A stretch of 64,000 bases of DNA from Liolophura sinensis. Lineage: Eukaryota > Mollusca > Polyplacophora > Chitonida > Chitonidae. This document shows positions 4,869-58,499 of the stretch, in pieces. The translations under genes and the position numbers were made by a program. The first letter of the stretch is position 1; each line of letters starts with the position of its first letter. The notes below the pieces were generated by a model. It made no database searches and was not told the origin of the DNA. It worked only from the letters and a program-made list of their open reading frames with translations. The stretch lies in the NCBI RefSeq assembly GCF_032854445.1, contig NC_088297.1, positions 22,701,127-22,765,126 on the forward strand. Reading direction: 5' to 3'.

Positions 4869-6511
4869 TGTGTTTTCTTACAGAGTAAACATAACCCAGT
4901 CCTTGTGACGATAACCATGGTTTTTACCGTGTTAAGGAGCAAATGTCCTTCTGGCTGATTAACAACCACCATCTGTGACCAGTGTGTCTTCCCCCTCGTT
5001 TTCTGCCTCTAGATACATGTGCCTACCAAAATTATGAAAGGGAAAAAAAAAAAACCTGGCAACAATTTTTCCAGTCTGTCACTTTGGCAGATGATTTGTC
5101 AGTGTTGATGGGCAATTCCTAGTGCACAGTTCTGCAGTTTCCTCAGCAGTGAGCAGATCCTTGCATAAAACCTTTGAGGGTTCCCATAAAATCCATGCGG
5201 CTGCCAATGAGAGTACATACACATCAGGTGGAGATAAAGGAATCACCCATATAACCACTGGAGAGGGCCCCAGTGTATCACACACCATGTGTCTGATACC
5301 AGAGATAAGACTGTTGACTGGACTGGTAATAAACAAACACACATGGCTTATACAGCACCATATCCTCTTGCTGCTTTTTCTGCAGCAGAGCCCTAGAATT
5401 TGGGTCCCTTTGATAATTCATACCAGACACTGGTGCACATAGATATGTGCACACAGGTTGGCAGTGTTTAGAGATAACCAAGGCTGCTCAGGGTGAGACA
5501 AAATTCTCTACTTACTTTAATACAGGTCTGAAGGTCCTCATATATGTAAGACATAAATAAATGCTCCTATGCATTCATTGTAAGCCCTTTATACTGTCTT
5601 ATCTGGCACTAATATTAGTGCCATGTCTTATGAAGAATCAGTATGTCGTACTCTTTAATCCTGAAGGCCTCCTGTACAAAATTACATGTAGCTAAACAGG
5701 AGAATAATGTATTGGACATCAGTGCCTGACAAGAGGTTACTTAACTAACTCACTTTAGAATTAAGTATTAACATATTTATGTATTTCATTGGTGTTTTTA
5801 ACTTTACCTGTATCCACTTTACTTTCCAGGAAGATGATTTATATAATGACTTCAAAAATGCTTTACATCTGTCCTCACTATCCACTTCAGAGCCACCAAC
5901 CCCCTCCCCATCCCTACATACCCACACAAAATATCACCAGGCTGAGCACAAGCCTTGCAACGTTAATAATCTGCCCCATGTATGTCTACAGAGCACATTA
6001 TGTAACATCAGCCATCCTTACAATGTTTCTATACACAGAGCAACACATAGCAAATACTCCTCCGCCCCAACATCAATAATCACTATGGCAACAGGGTACC
6101 TAATAAACCGAATCAATTCCACCAAAGAAGAGAAGGTTAATCTTGTAGGGTTATGAGGCGAATTACAAGGAAGTCCACAGTAAATCCTATGTCATGCTCT
6201 CATCTGTGTCAGCTGTAATGAAGTCAAGCAAGCATGTACAGTGTAGTACAAGGAATAATTTATTCACAAACTATGAAGCTGTTTATAGTAATTTCCATGT
6301 CATTGCATGTCAATCTGTCAATATTTAATTACACTCAATTTGCTTTCAGCATTGTACTTGTCATGCATGCATCATACTTTAATAGCTAAAGTCTTTTTTC
6401 AGCTCTGATCTGATCTAGCGCAGTCCACGGCATGGTTCAGGATCTGCAATACAGTTATATAAAACAGCATCAAATAAATCCACAGAATCAAAAATCGTAT
6501 CCTACAGTGTG

Positions 6512-6590
6512 CTACTTAGCATATAGCTCATTAGCATAGCATATCACTCATTAGCATAGCATATCACGTATTAGCATAGCATGTCTGGTG
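6512..6590. repeat. 20-bp tandem repeat, about 3.5 copies
   Basis: TAGCATAGCATATCACTCAT and close variants start at 6532, 6552 and 6572, with a degenerate copy before them. Confidence 0.8.
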
Positions 6591-34675: not shown

Positions 34676-34683
34676 TATATAAA
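34676..34683 (+). promoter_or_regulatory. TATA box of the coiled-coil gene
   Basis: TATATAAA in the context ATCGCTATATAAAGACG. A TCATCACTCATT stretch at 34709-34720, about 33 bp downstream, is a suitable initiator, and the ATG follows about 42 bp later. The spacing suits a TATA-driven promoter. Confidence 0.65.
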
Positions 34684-34752
34684 GACGTACATTCAGACAG
34701 CTAGAGTATCATCACTCATTCTTCGAAGCCGAAAACCCAACAACACACAAAA

Positions 34753-34758
34753 ATGGCG
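34753..34758 (+). CDS. Coiled-coil protein gene, exon 1 (Met-Ala)
   Basis: ATG-GCG followed directly by the donor GTAGGT. The start is preceded by CACACAAAA, giving A at -3 and G at +4, a strong context. The exon carries only two codons and ends in phase 0. Spliced to the acceptor at 38030 it gives M-A-S-P-E-K-P-T, with no stop. Using the alternative GT three bases later leads to stops in the next exon, so this donor is preferred. No ORF finder could report this exon because of its size. Confidence 0.68.
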
Positions 34759-35345
34759 GTAGGTAATATATCTATATTTTGATATATATACGGACATAAT
34801 GATGTCTTTCTGTTTTATTTGATTTAAGATGTATTTGACGTTTTATGCCCCTTTATGACTCCACAAAATGTTTCGTCAACAGCCCTCCCAAAAGCGTAGC
34901 CTAAATCATCGACTAAATAAACATCGTGTTCACCACAATCAGACGGGGAATCAAACTCTTGCTGGTCCCTCGCTAACCCTCCGTGTATGAGTGAAAAATG
35001 CTTGCCTGTGGCCTTAACCACAAATGAGTGATCAATCTAGTGTCAGTGTAAATGTGGCAATTACCATGTTTGTAATGGCGTCATAAAGTAGTGGGTGACC
35101 GAAAGAAGGAGGAAAGAAAAGAAAGAGCAGTCAAGACAAAGTATGACAATTAAGGCCACAGTCAAGCTAACAGAAGCTAGGTTCTAACACCCAACCCCCA
35201 GTGGTCAAGTACTTTAAATACGGTACCCACTGTGTAGAGTGCAATACCATGAAGTATAAAAATTGCTGATTTTTGAAGTGTTAGACGTGACCCGACAGAC
35301 CAGGTCTCGAACTTTCGTACATCACAATGCATTGGGTTGAACGTG

Positions 35346-35613
35346 TATTGATTTATTTGCATGGTGTTTTACGGCGTAGTCAAGAATATATCACTTATAC
35401 GACGGCAGTCAGCATTATATGGTGGGAGGAAACCGGGCTGAGCGCAGAGGAAACCAACAACCATCCGCAGGTTGCTGGAAGGCTTCCCCACCTTAGACCG
35501 GAGAGGAAGCCAGCATGAACTGGAATTGAACACATAGCGATCGCACTGGTGGGAAGTTGCTGCATGGGTTAGTGCGCCGTGCTGGCGTGCTAAACTCCTC
35601 GGCCACAGAGGCG
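35346..35613 (-). mobile_element. Full-length SINE in reverse, within the intron
   Basis: The tail is short (TTGATTTATTTG). The core CAGTCAGCATTATATGGTGG and the head GCTAAACTCCTCGGCCACAG are both diverged from the consensus. Orientation is opposite to the host gene. Confidence 0.88.
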
Positions 35614-36094
35614 TGTGATAAGTGTCCAACAATGGTTTGTGTCTAGATTGTTACCAGGTTAAGGCTACAGGACATCAATAGACTACAGAATCCGATACCG
35701 TACGCGCAAATTTTCTTACAAGCGTTACTCATAAGGTACGCACGCGAATGGTGAAAAAATGACACGTGCAGGTGGCAAATGTCCACATATACACGTGCAA
35801 GGAAATCTCGCGTGCACGCAACCATATGCCTTTTGCGCGAGTTTTTCTCACACACACGCACGCAAGAAAAATATACGCGAACGTGATTTTTTTCTCTAGG
35901 ATCTTAAGATATTAGGACCTTTACTTTCTAAAATTCGGATGTGTACCAATTTTGAAAGGCCGGAGACGCGTTCGCGCGTTCTTGTGCCCTTTTTGGTCTA
36001 TAATTGAGTACGTGGTATTTTGATATGGACGAGCGTAGCCGACAAGTTATAGTGTCACCAATGCACCACGAACACCCTAATGGAAAGAATCTGC

Positions 36095-36160
36095 ATTAAC
36101 CGCGTGTGTCCTAAAAGTTGAAAGGCAAGCACCATAACCACTCGGCCACGCCCTGCCCCC
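36095..36160 (-). mobile_element. tRNA-like SINE head, third type
   Basis: The minus strand reads GGGCGTGGCCGAGTGGTTAT then GGTGCTTGCCTTTCAA, the form of a Leu/Ser-type tRNA 5' half. The 3' half is not recognisable, so this is a fragment or an old SINE rather than a tRNA gene. Confidence 0.45.
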
Positions 36161-36743
36161 GCGTTTATGAGGAGGGTGGAAAATGCAACATATAAAGTAC
36201 CTATATTAAAATTTCAAATTAGGCCTATACATAGATCTATATAGCTGTTGTTAAAATGTCTACCGTGTGTGAGATACTGTAAAATGGGAGTGCCGGTATC
36301 TTAATATGCTTCGGTTGTTTGCAGGATGTAACATCAGATTATATTTAAAATGTGATAATACATGAAGGCGGAACTCAACACGAAGACGTGTTAACCTGAT
36401 TCATGTCATAAGATAGTTTCATACTACAACATTTTCTTAGCAGGCTTATAGAGTTCAATTTCAACCGCGACTCCAGCAGCCCCGCGTTGTGCGCCGCTTA
36501 AACAGTTAACACTGCGAACTTCGTGCCCCCGCGGAAGACTAAGTGTTACGAAGTGTTTCTAATACTTTGAAAAAAGTGTTGTGAATTGTTGGAGTTAATA
36601 TTATTGAAGTTATATTTAACATTTCAGTTTTAAGAGTGTAGAATATTTAAACAAACACTTAAATATCTTAATTCACTCTAGTTCCCAACCTGACTACTAT
36701 GTGCACACAATCCAATGCAAACAAATATCAGTGTTTAAGTTTT

Positions 36744-36812
36744 CCAGCAACCTTCGGATGGCCGTGGGTTTCCCCCGGGCGCTGCCCGGTTTCCACTCAC
36801 TATAATGCTGTG
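36744..36812 (+). mobile_element. SINE internal fragment, forward
   Basis: AGCAACCTTCGGATGGCCGT, then GGGTTTCCCCCGGGCGCTGC and CACTATAATGCTG match the SINE middle. Both ends are absent. Confidence 0.85.
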
Positions 36813-37382
36813 TGCAACAACAAAAACAACCCAAACCATTCTCTGTTGTTATTATCTACGCTTAATTGGTTGTAAACGACCTCTTTGCCTTACGAGCACA
36901 ACTTTGTCGAAACAGTGACGTCCATTGTGTTACCGAACAAAACTGTACACCACTTACACTGACCCATTTTGGTCACGGTGATATATCACTGCCCACACAT
37001 GAAGCTCTCTCAGTGCAGTTCTTGATTTTACACCACCTCTCTTACATATACGGTACACTGACACGGTACAGACAGGTATTACGTACAGAAGATCGATGAT
37101 AAATAGCTTATATGGTATTTAAATCATCATACAGAATAGGCCTACTCTTTTTCGATATTGACATATATGTCTTAACTAACTAGGCCAATTATTAGCTTCT
37201 ATAAATGTCGCCACAACAAAGTAACTCTCAGATTTAAACTCTGATTTAGGTTGTTCTCCGAGAAACAGCCAATGATCAATGATCCAGTCAGTGAAGACGA
37301 CACATTGCAAATAGCTCTAATCTGGCCAAGCTAAAGACAGAACGGTCATGTTCGTGATCAAGGTGTTTAGCGTGCCAGTGCC

Positions 37383-37497
37383 ACGCAGTGACCCAGGAAT
37401 TTCCAACCAGTGAGATTTGCTGTGAGGTTAACGTCAGCTCATGCTGGCTTCCTCATGTGCCGTACGTGTGAAGGTCTGCTGGCAATCTGCGGATGGG
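37383..37497 (+). mobile_element. SINE 5' half, truncated at a minisatellite
   Basis: GCAGTGACCCAGGAATTTCC, GTCAGCTCATGCTGGCTTCC and GTACGTGTGAAGGTCTGCTG correspond to the SINE after its A box. The match stops at GCGGATGGG, where the 25-bp array begins. Confidence 0.8.
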
Positions 37498-37610
37498 CGT
37501 GTCCCACATATTACCACACGGTCGTGTCCCATATGTTACCACACGGTCGTGTCCCGCATATTACCACACGGTCGTGTCCCACATGTTACCACATGGTCGT
37601 GTTCCGCAGG
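37498..37610. repeat. 25-bp tandem repeat, about 4.5 copies, inside SINE sequence
   Basis: CGTGTCCCACATATTACCAC plus ACGGT starts at 37498, 37523, 37548, 37573 and 37598. It begins where the SINE would continue with TCGTGGG, so it either grew from a SINE segment or was inserted there. Long ORFs through it (37410-37788) are artefacts. Confidence 0.92.
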
Positions 37611-37656
37611 TTACTTGTACCAGTGTCGAATTAAAGAAAAATTTTACGACCAAGAA

Positions 37657-37882
37657 TGGTGCGATCGCTGTGGGTTCATGTCCAGCTCAAGCTGGGTTCC
37701 TCTTCGGCCGTACGTGGGAACTTCTGACAGCAGCCTGCGGATGATTGTGGGTTTCCCAAGGGGTTTCACCTGGTTCCTCCCACTATAATGCTGGCCGCCG
37801 TTGTATTGAAATATGAAATATTAGTATATGAAGTGCAATGTTCTTGAGAACGGAGTAAAACGCTAATCGAATAAATATCATG
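37657..37882 (+). mobile_element. SINE copy lacking the A box, forward
   Basis: GGTGCGATCGCTGTGGGTTC, CGGCCGTACGTGGGAACTTC, AATGCTGGCCGCCGTTG and TTCTTGAGAACGGAGTAAAA are in SINE order. A 30-bp A/T insertion lies between the core and the final block. The tail is short. Confidence 0.85.
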
Positions 37883-38030
37883 GAAAATGCATGAAGGAAG
37901 CTCACCATGATGGGCACCCAAAAGAGCACCGAAATTACAGAGTTGAGAGGGTAAGGAGAAGAATTCCTTCAGACAGAAGAACTCCTTGGATTTAACAAAA
38001 TTATTGAATTAACATTTCCTAATGTTTTAG

Positions 38031-38570
38031 AGCCCAGAAAAACCGACAAAAACCAAAGGATGGGGAAAGCTTCGGGAGATGGGACCCACAGAAATCACCA
38101 GAATGCTCCACCGTGAAAAGCGAGAGATCGATTTGTACTCGGAGAAAGTCCAACTAAGCTCCAAGATCATCTCCAGATTGCTGAAGGGTTTGGAACACGT
38201 CAGGGACAAGCGAAAAGCTCCTGTAAAAACTACTCCGGTCAAAATGGTCGACCAGTCAACATCGCCAGAACCAAAGTTATCGCGCAAAATGCTCCAGAAA
38301 GAAATGGATATATTGAAGTCGTTGCTGTGGGATAAAGAGCAGGAAATTAAATCGAAAGACGCGGAGATCAAGGAGCTGATTGGTCAATGTAAGGACAAGG
38401 ACGAGAAGATAGAGCAGCACCTGAGAAAAGTGGAATTGGCTGTCCCTACGGTCATGGAGGCCTTGATGAAACAGGTGAACGAACTCAGCATCTTGCGTAC
38501 TCAAGATCCCTCCGTCGAGATTGATCCGGAAGAAATCAAGAAAGCACGAGTCGCACTTGAAGGGGAATGA
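38031..38570 (+). CDS. Unrecognised lysine-rich coiled-coil protein, terminal exon
   Basis: The exon follows CATTTCCTAATGTTTTAG and reads S-P-E-K-P-T-K-T-K-G-W-G-K-L-R-E-M and on to a stop at 38568-38570. With exon 1 the protein is 181 residues. The first 18 residues are basic (SPEKPTKTK). Residues about 24-60 form a helix-prone charged segment. Residues 61-84 are a Lys/Pro/Ser/Thr linker. Residues about 86-158 are a strong coiled-coil candidate, with L/I/V at heptad spacing through IKSKDAEIKELIGQ and EALMKQVNELSILR. The tail is acidic. There is one tryptophan in the basic start and one near residue 102, and a single cysteine at 122. No signal peptide or membrane segment is present, so a cytosolic or nuclear protein is likely. 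The exon is less A/T-rich than its surroundings and codon-like. I do not recognise a family. An internal Met start at 38079 is possible if the splice is wrong. Confidence 0.72.
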   Translation, partial: SPEKPTKTKGWGKLREMGPTEITRMLHREKREIDLYSEKVQLSSKIISRLLKGLEHVRDKRKAPVKTTPVKMVDQSTSPEPKLSRKMLQKEMDILKSLLWDKEQEIKSKDAEIKELIGQCKDKDEKIEQHLRKVELAVPTVMEALMKQVNELSILRTQDPSVEIDPEEIKKARVALEGE

Positions 38571-38583
38571 AACATGTGTATTA

Positions 38584-38608
38584 ATAGCCAATAATGTGTA
38601 TTGGCTAT
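38584..38608 (+). promoter_or_regulatory. Perfect 10-bp hairpin in the 3' UTR
   Basis: ATAGCCAATA and TATTGGCTAT are exact reverse complements separated by ATGTG, starting 14 bases after the stop codon. Read as RNA this is a 10-bp stem with a 5-nt loop. It does not match the histone stem-loop consensus (6-bp stem, 4-nt loop). The arm also contains the CCAAT core. Confidence 0.8.
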
Positions 38609-38913
38609 GAGGAGAACGAGCATGAAAAACTTGCTGGAAAGACTATATCCGAAACTGTACAATCCATTTTGTAATATTTCGTACAGTCGATAATGTACAA
38701 GATGTTGTCTTCAATGTGTAGCACTTCGCATTTTTTTTTCTTTTTTTAATATCTGTATGGTTGTGAAAAAAGTAGTAGCCTTACGAGTGTGCCATGCAGC
38801 AGACGTCACTCACAGCTATAGTCAGTTTCGCTACTCGAGGCCCACGGTTTCTTGCACTAGGGACCATTCCCTGCCCACTATACCAGGTCCTTGTAAGTTA
38901 ATAACATTCAAAC

Positions 38914-38919
38914 ATTAAA
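38914..38919 (+). terminator. Possible polyadenylation signal (ATTAAA)
   Basis: ATTAAA in AACATTAAACTATTTG, about 345 bp after the stop. It is the best candidate in the 3' flank, since no AATAAA occurs between the stop and this point. The cleavage site is not predicted. Confidence 0.35.
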
Positions 38920-39262
38920 CTATTTGTATACCTCCTATGTTTGAAGCATCTTGAAAACGATTTCGGGGCTTTGTGCTCTTCACAGTTTCTAAAGATATGG
39001 CCGAAAAGTTCCGATGCAGATTACAAGGAAAGACAACAGATAATATAACCGGAGTTATTTAGGAAGACGGCCGAAATAGCCTTTTTTCTGACGCGCTTTG
39101 CAACTATATATATATATATAGACGTTTAACTTCGAATTCTTGAGATGCGCCATTCACACATATCTGGTCTGTATATACATGTAGTGTTTCTTTTAAACCT
39201 TTCTTTATATGAAATTGCTGTGTTTAAAAACACAGGTGCATGATGTACCCATGACGCAACTC

Positions 39263-39864
39263 TTTTACAATATTCAATTATTAAGCATGCAACTATGTTA
39301 CAATATGTAATTATTAAGCATGCAACTATGTTACAATATGCCATTATTAAGCATGCAACTATGTTACAGTATGCAATTATTAAACATGCAACTATGTTAC
39401 AATATGCCATTATTAAGCATGCAATTATGTTGCAATATGTAATTATTAAGCATGCAACTATGTTACAATATGTCATTATTAAGCATGCAACTAGGTTACA
39501 ATACGTAATTATTAAGCATGCAACTGTTACATATGTAATTATTAAGCATGCAAATATGTTACAATATGTAATTATTAATCATGCAACTATGTTACAATAT
39601 GCCATTATTAAGCATGCAACTATGTTACAATATGCAATTATCAAGCATGCAACTATGTTACAATATGCCATTATTAAGCATGCAACTATGTTACAATATG
39701 TAATTATTAATCATGCAACTATGTTACAATATGCCATTATTAAGCATGCAACTATGTTACAATACGTAATTATTAAGCATCCAAACTGTTACATATGTAA
39801 TTATTAAGCATACAACTATGTTACAGTATGTAATTATTATAAGCATGCAACTATGTTACAATAC
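39263..39864. repeat. 33-bp minisatellite, about 18 copies, open on both strands
   Basis: The unit is AAGCATGCAACTATGTTACA plus ATATGTAATTATT, with A/C alternation at ATGYMATTATT. Because 33 is 11 codons, the plus strand reads M-L-Q-Y-V/A-I-I-K-H-A-T repeatedly for 170 residues (39295-39807) and the minus strand reads C-L-I-I/M-T/A-Y-C-N-I-V-A. A few units are shortened by 2-3 bases. There is no flanking coding context, so it is treated as non-coding. Confidence 0.93.
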
Positions 39865-57503: not shown

Positions 57504-58499
57504 TATACTACCTCTCTGCACTCACAAAACCATGCTGTTGGAATAGCAGAATAAGTCTGTCATATGTAACAAATTGTGCAGCATTGACATAATCTGTTCT
57601 GGCATTGCTGGCAAAACATAATGTCCGGTCAGTTTAACAGATTAGAGTTTAGTGTGCAATTGAACATAACCATGTCTTTCAGATACCGGCCGCCATTAAA
57701 AATGGACATCTGTATGATGTGTCCGATCTTTAGGGTGTTTTTATCCCAGAAGAGTTTATAAATAGGTTCCTTGAACTTCTATCCTGTCGAGCGTAAGTGT
57801 GAAATGGTCCGACGGCCATTGGGGTTGATAAATACATGGTGAATTGTTTGTATCATACATAGGTTTATTCTTGCATGACTTAAACCAGACAGCAGGATAT
57901 GTTCTCCAGTATTAGCTGTGATAAGTTGTAGGCCAGAACTTCAACAAAGTGTGGCATGCCGGATAAAATCATGTGTACAGAGCTCAGTAGCATGCGAGCT
58001 GATATGCGGATAGAGGATTAAAGGCGTATAACCGTTTTTAACAGTTGATAGCCTATATATATATATATATATATATGCATGGATGCATTCAACGCTAGTG
58101 TGTTGTCATCCTGTTGATGTTGTTGAAGATTGAATTATATGACTAAATATAGAAAAGCTAACATGTATGAAAGTATACAGAATTACATAATGGAAAGGGA
58201 AAAAATCGCATCTCTTCTTTCAAGTTTTTGTGCAGGCAATGAAGCAAGTATATCAATTTGTATACACAAAGGACGGTGTGGGCGTCAGCGACATGCTCCA
58301 GATTGCTGGCGGACAATTCGTCGTCTGACGGTGCTAAAGGGAGAGAAAGCTTCAGGTAATGCGGAGTACCATGCCCACCCGAGGGTGAGCCCTGAGAGCG
58401 CTACTGTGATTGGTCAGCATGGGTTGGCTGGTGTGGAACAGAACAGTCACCCCGACTGGAACAGAAGGCAGACGACCACACGGCACAGTGGAAATCAGC

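Follow-up and report, generated by a model that had tools for sequence, protein, structure and literature searches.

The locus and its probable terminal exon

Here, we analyzed a window of 64,000 nucleotides from contig NC_088297.1 of the chiton Liolophura sinensis, in which an original prediction had placed a two-exon gene for a coiled-coil protein (all positions below refer to this whole stretch, unless another locus is named). On its plus strand, a TATA box (TATATAAA, 34676-34683; 9.1 bits with a TATA matrix) lies 77 nt 5' of an ATG, as can be read directly, and provides the element by which a promoter counts as TATA-type. Such a promoter would start the mRNA near 34706, at about +30 from the TATA box, giving a predicted, A-rich 5' untranslated region (UTR; 34706-34752) that contains no ATG upstream of 34753. 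The start codon at 34753 (ACAAAAATGG; context 3.1 bits) and one further codon form the first coding exon (34753-34758, ATG GCG, Met-Ala), which would end after these two codons at a donor following 34758 (GCG/GTAGGT; 8.1 bits). A phase-0 intron of about 3.3 kb would come next (34759-38030, 3,272 nt, GTAGGT...TTTTAG), and its acceptor AG at 38029-38030 is contained in an in-frame TAG (38028-38030). From 38031 the frame is open to 38567 and then meets TGA. This second and last exon (38031-38570, 179 codons plus TGA) would supply the other 179 residues of a protein that, with ATG-GCG joined to it, has 181. The TATA box, ATG-GCG-GTAGGT, the acceptor and the frame had all been named in the original prediction; each is present where it was placed, and together they exceed what chance would provide. 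The two-exon model has good computational support, and we consider it likely that the locus is a real, single-copy, plus-strand protein gene with two exons, encoding a coiled-coil product of no family that we recognize.

The exon at 38031-38570 looks coding. As a codon standard we used the longest open reading frames (ORFs) of 16 receptor loci (7,541 codons; the top 16 among 147 matches to rhodopsin-family receptors that were scored out of 1,077 candidates), with nine 10-kb stretches as background. Against this standard, the synonymous codon choice of the exon scores 14.7 bits, where background-like sequence is expected at -9.3 +/- 5.2 and coding-like sequence at 9.3 +/- 5.2. This is 3.7 standard deviations (SD) above a null matched to the base composition of the exon, and 3.7-4.6 SD over the non-coding nulls. 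Among the 28 ORFs of at least 110 aa in the window, it is the sole one above 10 bits; in the background stretches, seven of 43 ORFs exceed this value, six of them in L010 (some antisense to others) and one, a 516-residue frame, in L004. In 40 mononucleotide shuffles of the 64-kb window, ORFs of at least 179 aa arose at a rate of 0.05 per shuffle. Tandem repeats also yield long frames in the window, e.g. one of 187 aa at 39244-39807.

Certain observations on the exon weigh against our reading. Its first 16 codons carry no codon signal (-1.4, compared to a null of -0.7 +/- 1.5), albeit in a test of low power. The codon-like composition claimed in the original prediction was seen for the exon as a whole, but not for the 16 residues that the splice would add to the internal-Met frame. 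Besides, an antisense ORF at 38030-38383 has an equal score per codon, although it is shorter and its GC content is lower at first than at second codon positions, and a purine-any base-pyrimidine (RNY) test gives the sense frame no advantage. The longest background frame, 707 residues on the minus strand of L005 (5870-7990), scores -61 bits, so not all long frames of this genome conform to the codon test. A chance open frame or a decayed remnant that yields no product would agree with the similar per-codon score of the antisense frame, as it would with the failure to find a homolog in the searches made. Yet codon choice (z 3.7-4.6), ORF length and the coherent promoter and first-exon unit have to be taken together, and in their combined light we regard a frame without a product as very improbable.

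A further question is where translation of this exon begins. The context of the ATG at 38079 (CGGGAGATGG) is acceptable, and, in keeping with the missing codon signal in the 16 residues upstream of it, this ATG could be the start of a 163-residue protein, encoded either by a single-exon gene or downstream of a non-coding first exon. However, the first AUG after 38031 is the one at 38060, which is out of frame and in a strong context (CAAAGGATGG; A at -3, G at +4). It opens 18 codons (38060-38116) spanning the ATGs at 38079 and 38103, which are in frame. This argues against a start at 38079, except for transcripts beginning between 38061 and 38079, to which it does not apply. Once the two-codon exon is joined on, by contrast, the ATG at 38060 falls harmlessly within coding sequence. 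We thus hold a start at 38079 to be quite unlikely.

Putative promoter, first exon and splice sites

The first exon was assessed with a scan in which each ATG was scored for a TATA box 55-150 nt upstream, its start context and a phase-0 donor within at most 300 nt, using approximate matrices. The scan covered 604,004 strand-positions, i.e. about 0.3 Mb on both strands (414,404 including the window and the receptor loci, plus 189,600). The site at 34753 scores 20.3, the best of any ATG on the plus strand between 26 and 38 kb (the runner-up scores 17.6), and no phase-0 unit in the 12 kb before the terminal exon ranks above it. In simulated DNA of the same dinucleotide make-up, 19 matches arose in 10 Mb, or 0.0063 per 3.3 kb, ten of them with exons of at most 10 codons. 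In real sequence, true genes included, the rate was 0.032 per 3.3 kb (scan of 414,404 positions). The proposed two-codon first exon is of phase 0, as the scan demanded. The promoter segment itself has a single genome match, with no second copy in what was scored.

Throughout the scan, the score of the 34753 site was equaled or exceeded by four other sites. Two of these are the first exons of two genes in L010 (MREIVHLQAGQCGNQIGAK), which we take from characteristic peptides to be beta-tubulin genes. The third, ATG/GTGAGT in L032, may belong to an EF-hand gene that follows about 2 kb downstream (Pfam PF13405, E 5.5e-7). Since three of the four other matches stand at or upstream of recognized genes, this genome appears to use an architecture of TATA box and short first exon, or so the scan suggests. 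The fourth match, at 58189 in the window (score 20.6), is probably false: its TATA box sits in an AT run, and its ORF has no family.

The two presumed beta-tubulin genes of L010 are divergent and lie within 10 kb of each other; both have a TATA box and a first exon of 19 codons. At L032, positions 6420-6560 combine a TATA promoter-like site with ATG/GTGAGT and might hold a one-codon first exon. As for the window, the first-exon-like unit at 58189 (58069-58384) sits in a 139-residue ORF without a Pfam family.

Certain features of the scan and the promoter speak against our model. The scan threshold was set at the score of the site itself, which makes the case look somewhat better than it is, and the matrices are approximate. 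In mouse, a TATA box stands most often 30-31 nt, and mostly 27-34 nt, from the transcription start site (PMC1779604). The initiator claimed in the original prediction did not hold up: by eye, there is no YYANWYY 28-34 nt from the TATA box.

The acceptor, too, is less favorable than had been thought. Described in the original prediction as good, the AG at 38029-38030 turned out to be ordinary, scoring -1.8 in a crude model, which puts it at the 81st percentile among 16,581 AGs. For four real tubulin acceptors, the values are -2.7, 1.7, 5.9 and 7.6, and three of the four thus rank above it. The AG at 38036-38037, seven bases downstream, is slightly better (-0.5), but an exon from 38038 would not continue the frame of exon 1; a third AG, at 38031-38032, has a score of -2.3. 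On the other hand, the AG at 38029-38030 is the first one after a candidate branch site (TTAAC, 38009-38013). Since the first AG past the branch site is usually favored in acceptor scanning, this AG should be preferred. Altogether, the proposed two-exon gene for a coiled-coil protein retains its computational support, yet with an acceptor of ordinary strength, and we infer that the two exons are spliced.

The same acceptor and the same coding exon would fit equally well as the end of a longer gene with several exons, the others lying further upstream and the TATA/ATG unit being coincidental; our scans would miss short exons in that region. We nevertheless consider such a gene unlikely. Six-frame Pfam scans of about 25.0-55.0 kb (elsewhere in the window, single ORFs were scanned) revealed no further conserved gene (E <= 0.01), apart from a below-cut-off match in a tandem repeat (see below). 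The one window ORF of at least 110 aa with a codon score above 10 bits is the exon itself, and a first-exon unit as good as the one at 34753 is expected 0.006 (simulated) to 0.03 (real sequence) times per 3.3 kb.

Repeats and other features around the predicted gene

Around the two exons of the favored model, we noted a number of further elements. Within the predicted intron, a dispersed repeat at 35346-35612 (plus strand), which we presume to be related to short interspersed elements (SINE-like), is 74-85% identical to its listed matches, for which 40 of 12,441 candidates were scored. An inverted partial copy at 37660-37814 (minus strand) matches it at 75%, and the two might pair with each other in the pre-mRNA. 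Under the same limit of 40 scored candidates out of 12,441, the intron fragments 36744-36810 and 37361-37501 gave a single match each.

Just past the stop codon, the predicted 3' UTR contains a perfect 10-bp hairpin with a 5-nt loop (38584-38608, plus strand). Its fold is more stable than expected (z = -2.9, one of 200 shuffles being as stable), and it has one genome match at no more than three mismatches; it may act as a control element of the 3' UTR or have arisen by chance. Further downstream, 38764-38892 (plus strand) is a 5'-truncated copy of another dispersed repeat (40 matches scored of 491 candidates, itself included). Most of eight aligned copies share additional 5' sequence that is absent here, and the consensus of nine copies has a well-conserved core (GTCACTCACAGCTATAGTCAGTTTCGCTACTCGAGG). 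In a genome search with 37860-38930, the other 39 listed matches all fell on this element, and no second match to the coding exon turned up among the scored candidates. Past the stop, the earliest poly(A)-signal variant is an ATTAAA at 38914-38919 (plus strand), there being no AATAAA in 38571-39600.

Beyond the gene, a 33-bp tandem array of 18.5 copies (39256-39863) is open in frames on both strands. It accounts for the below-cut-off Pfam match mentioned above, a false minus-strand hit to the hexapeptide-repeat family PF24894, with 19.2 bits against a cut-off of 23.3.

The predicted protein and its relatives

The predicted 181-aa product has a mass of 20.9 kDa, an isoelectric point of 9.1, 14.9% Lys and 6.6% Ser. 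Its predicted layout comprises a short basic head (hydrophilic and basic by inspection), two long amphipathic helices at about 21-64 and 87-160 with a linker rich in K, P and T between them, and a short tail helix. For the exon-2 sequence alone, AlphaFold2 placed helices at exon residues 11-16, 19-62, 85-158 and 166-178. The mean predicted local distance difference test score (pLDDT) of this model is 81, but its predicted template modeling score (pTM) is 0.37, and therefore the helices are credible while their packing is not. The hydrophobic residues follow a period near 100 degrees in both long helices (shuffle p = 0.003 and 0.0004), though not in the tail helix (p = 0.66). The basic start and the linker of the original prediction are found, but in place of its coiled coil of about 70 residues there are two long helices, one of which had been overlooked. 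Besides, the sequence contains two S/T-P-x-K sites (shuffle p = 0.024), one in the head and one in the linker. S/T-P-x-K is a pattern of proline-directed kinases.

The original prediction had recognized no family and had suggested homology searches and a coiled-coil prediction as a follow-up. Profile and sequence searches of the libraries and of the chiton's own genome again yielded no family, and AlphaFold2 supported the helices. No match to the protein reached the cut-off in Pfam or NCBIfam. The nearest profiles remained well below theirs (FAM76, PF16046: 14.1 bits, E = 0.031, gathering score 28.5; CCDC-167, PF15188: 13.2 bits, E = 0.11, gathering score 27), and these weak echoes come from small coiled-coil proteins, with which the predicted product shares long amphipathic helices rich in K and E. 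Among PDB sequences there was no match at E <= 10, and Foldseek returned no PDB or BFVD structure with E <= 0.001 (ten BFVD matches all had E >= 2.6). In the animal's own genome we found no paralog; the one other match there (E = 0.76 with the entire protein as query, 0.038 with an N-terminal piece of 53 residues) is attributable to chance, as it overlaps and overruns a rhodopsin-family receptor match and contains an internal stop. Viral and prokaryotic origins were likewise dismissed, with 10 and 58 stretches, respectively, matching the search pattern but none proving a relative by tblastn. The available part of the report on the spiralian-specific proteins lophotrochin and trochin gave no sign of a relation (PMC7441323), and the DUF4476 part of lophotrochin has no counterpart among the Pfam matches of our protein. 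At the level of titles and opening lines of abstracts, our literature search found no account of this protein, nor of two-codon first exons in mollusks.

In its structure, the gene most resembles, by our comparison, a known class of genes that encode short, lysine-rich proteins and carry an intron at the start codon, though in our gene the intron lies one codon later. Phase-0 introns near the start are the mark of this class (Nielsen and Wernersson 2006, PMC1626468), and the group means tabulated in that study are 153-289 aa, 6.5-8.1% Lys and 6.2-8.1% Ser. The likeness extends to a phase-0 intron right at the beginning of the coding sequence and a short, lysine-rich, serine-poor product (here 181 aa, 14.9% Lys and 6.6% Ser). 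A further trait of the class is the lack of a signal peptide, a point on which inspection of our protein shows just a hydrophilic, basic N-terminus. In contrast, the intron of the class separates codons 1 and 2 instead of codons 2 and 3, and the class is enriched for conserved and ribosomal proteins, whereas our predicted protein belongs to no recognized family. The ATG/GTGAGT site upstream of the EF-hand gene in L032 would be a start-codon-intron-like site in the same genome.

As to function, the two long helices would mediate self-association or partner binding, making the product a small coiled-coil scaffold or adaptor, possibly switched by a proline-directed kinase acting on the S/T-P-x-K sites of head and linker. 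The TATA promoter, in turn, would suggest cell-type-specific rather than constant expression. Computation shows the coding exon, the unit of promoter and first exon and a propensity for helices; oligomerization, kinase control and restricted expression we infer. Taken to its full extent, this would describe a two-helix coiled-coil protein that is restricted to its lineage, regulated by a proline-directed kinase and expressed in a single cell type under a TATA promoter. Its regulatory S-P-E-K head would be translated solely through the splicing of a two-codon exon from 3.3 kb away, and an annotation made without RNA data would lack the true N-terminus. In this complete form the picture is tentative and, in our view, rather doubtful.

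In summary, the gene is of a believable but ordinary kind, and its biological payoff hinges on expression and conservation. If the model is true, Liolophura would gain one more uncharacterized coiled-coil gene. It would also mean that a simple score, which recovers the tubulin first exons as well, can detect tiny first coding exons that gene finders easily overlook in this genome, by combining TATA box, start and donor.

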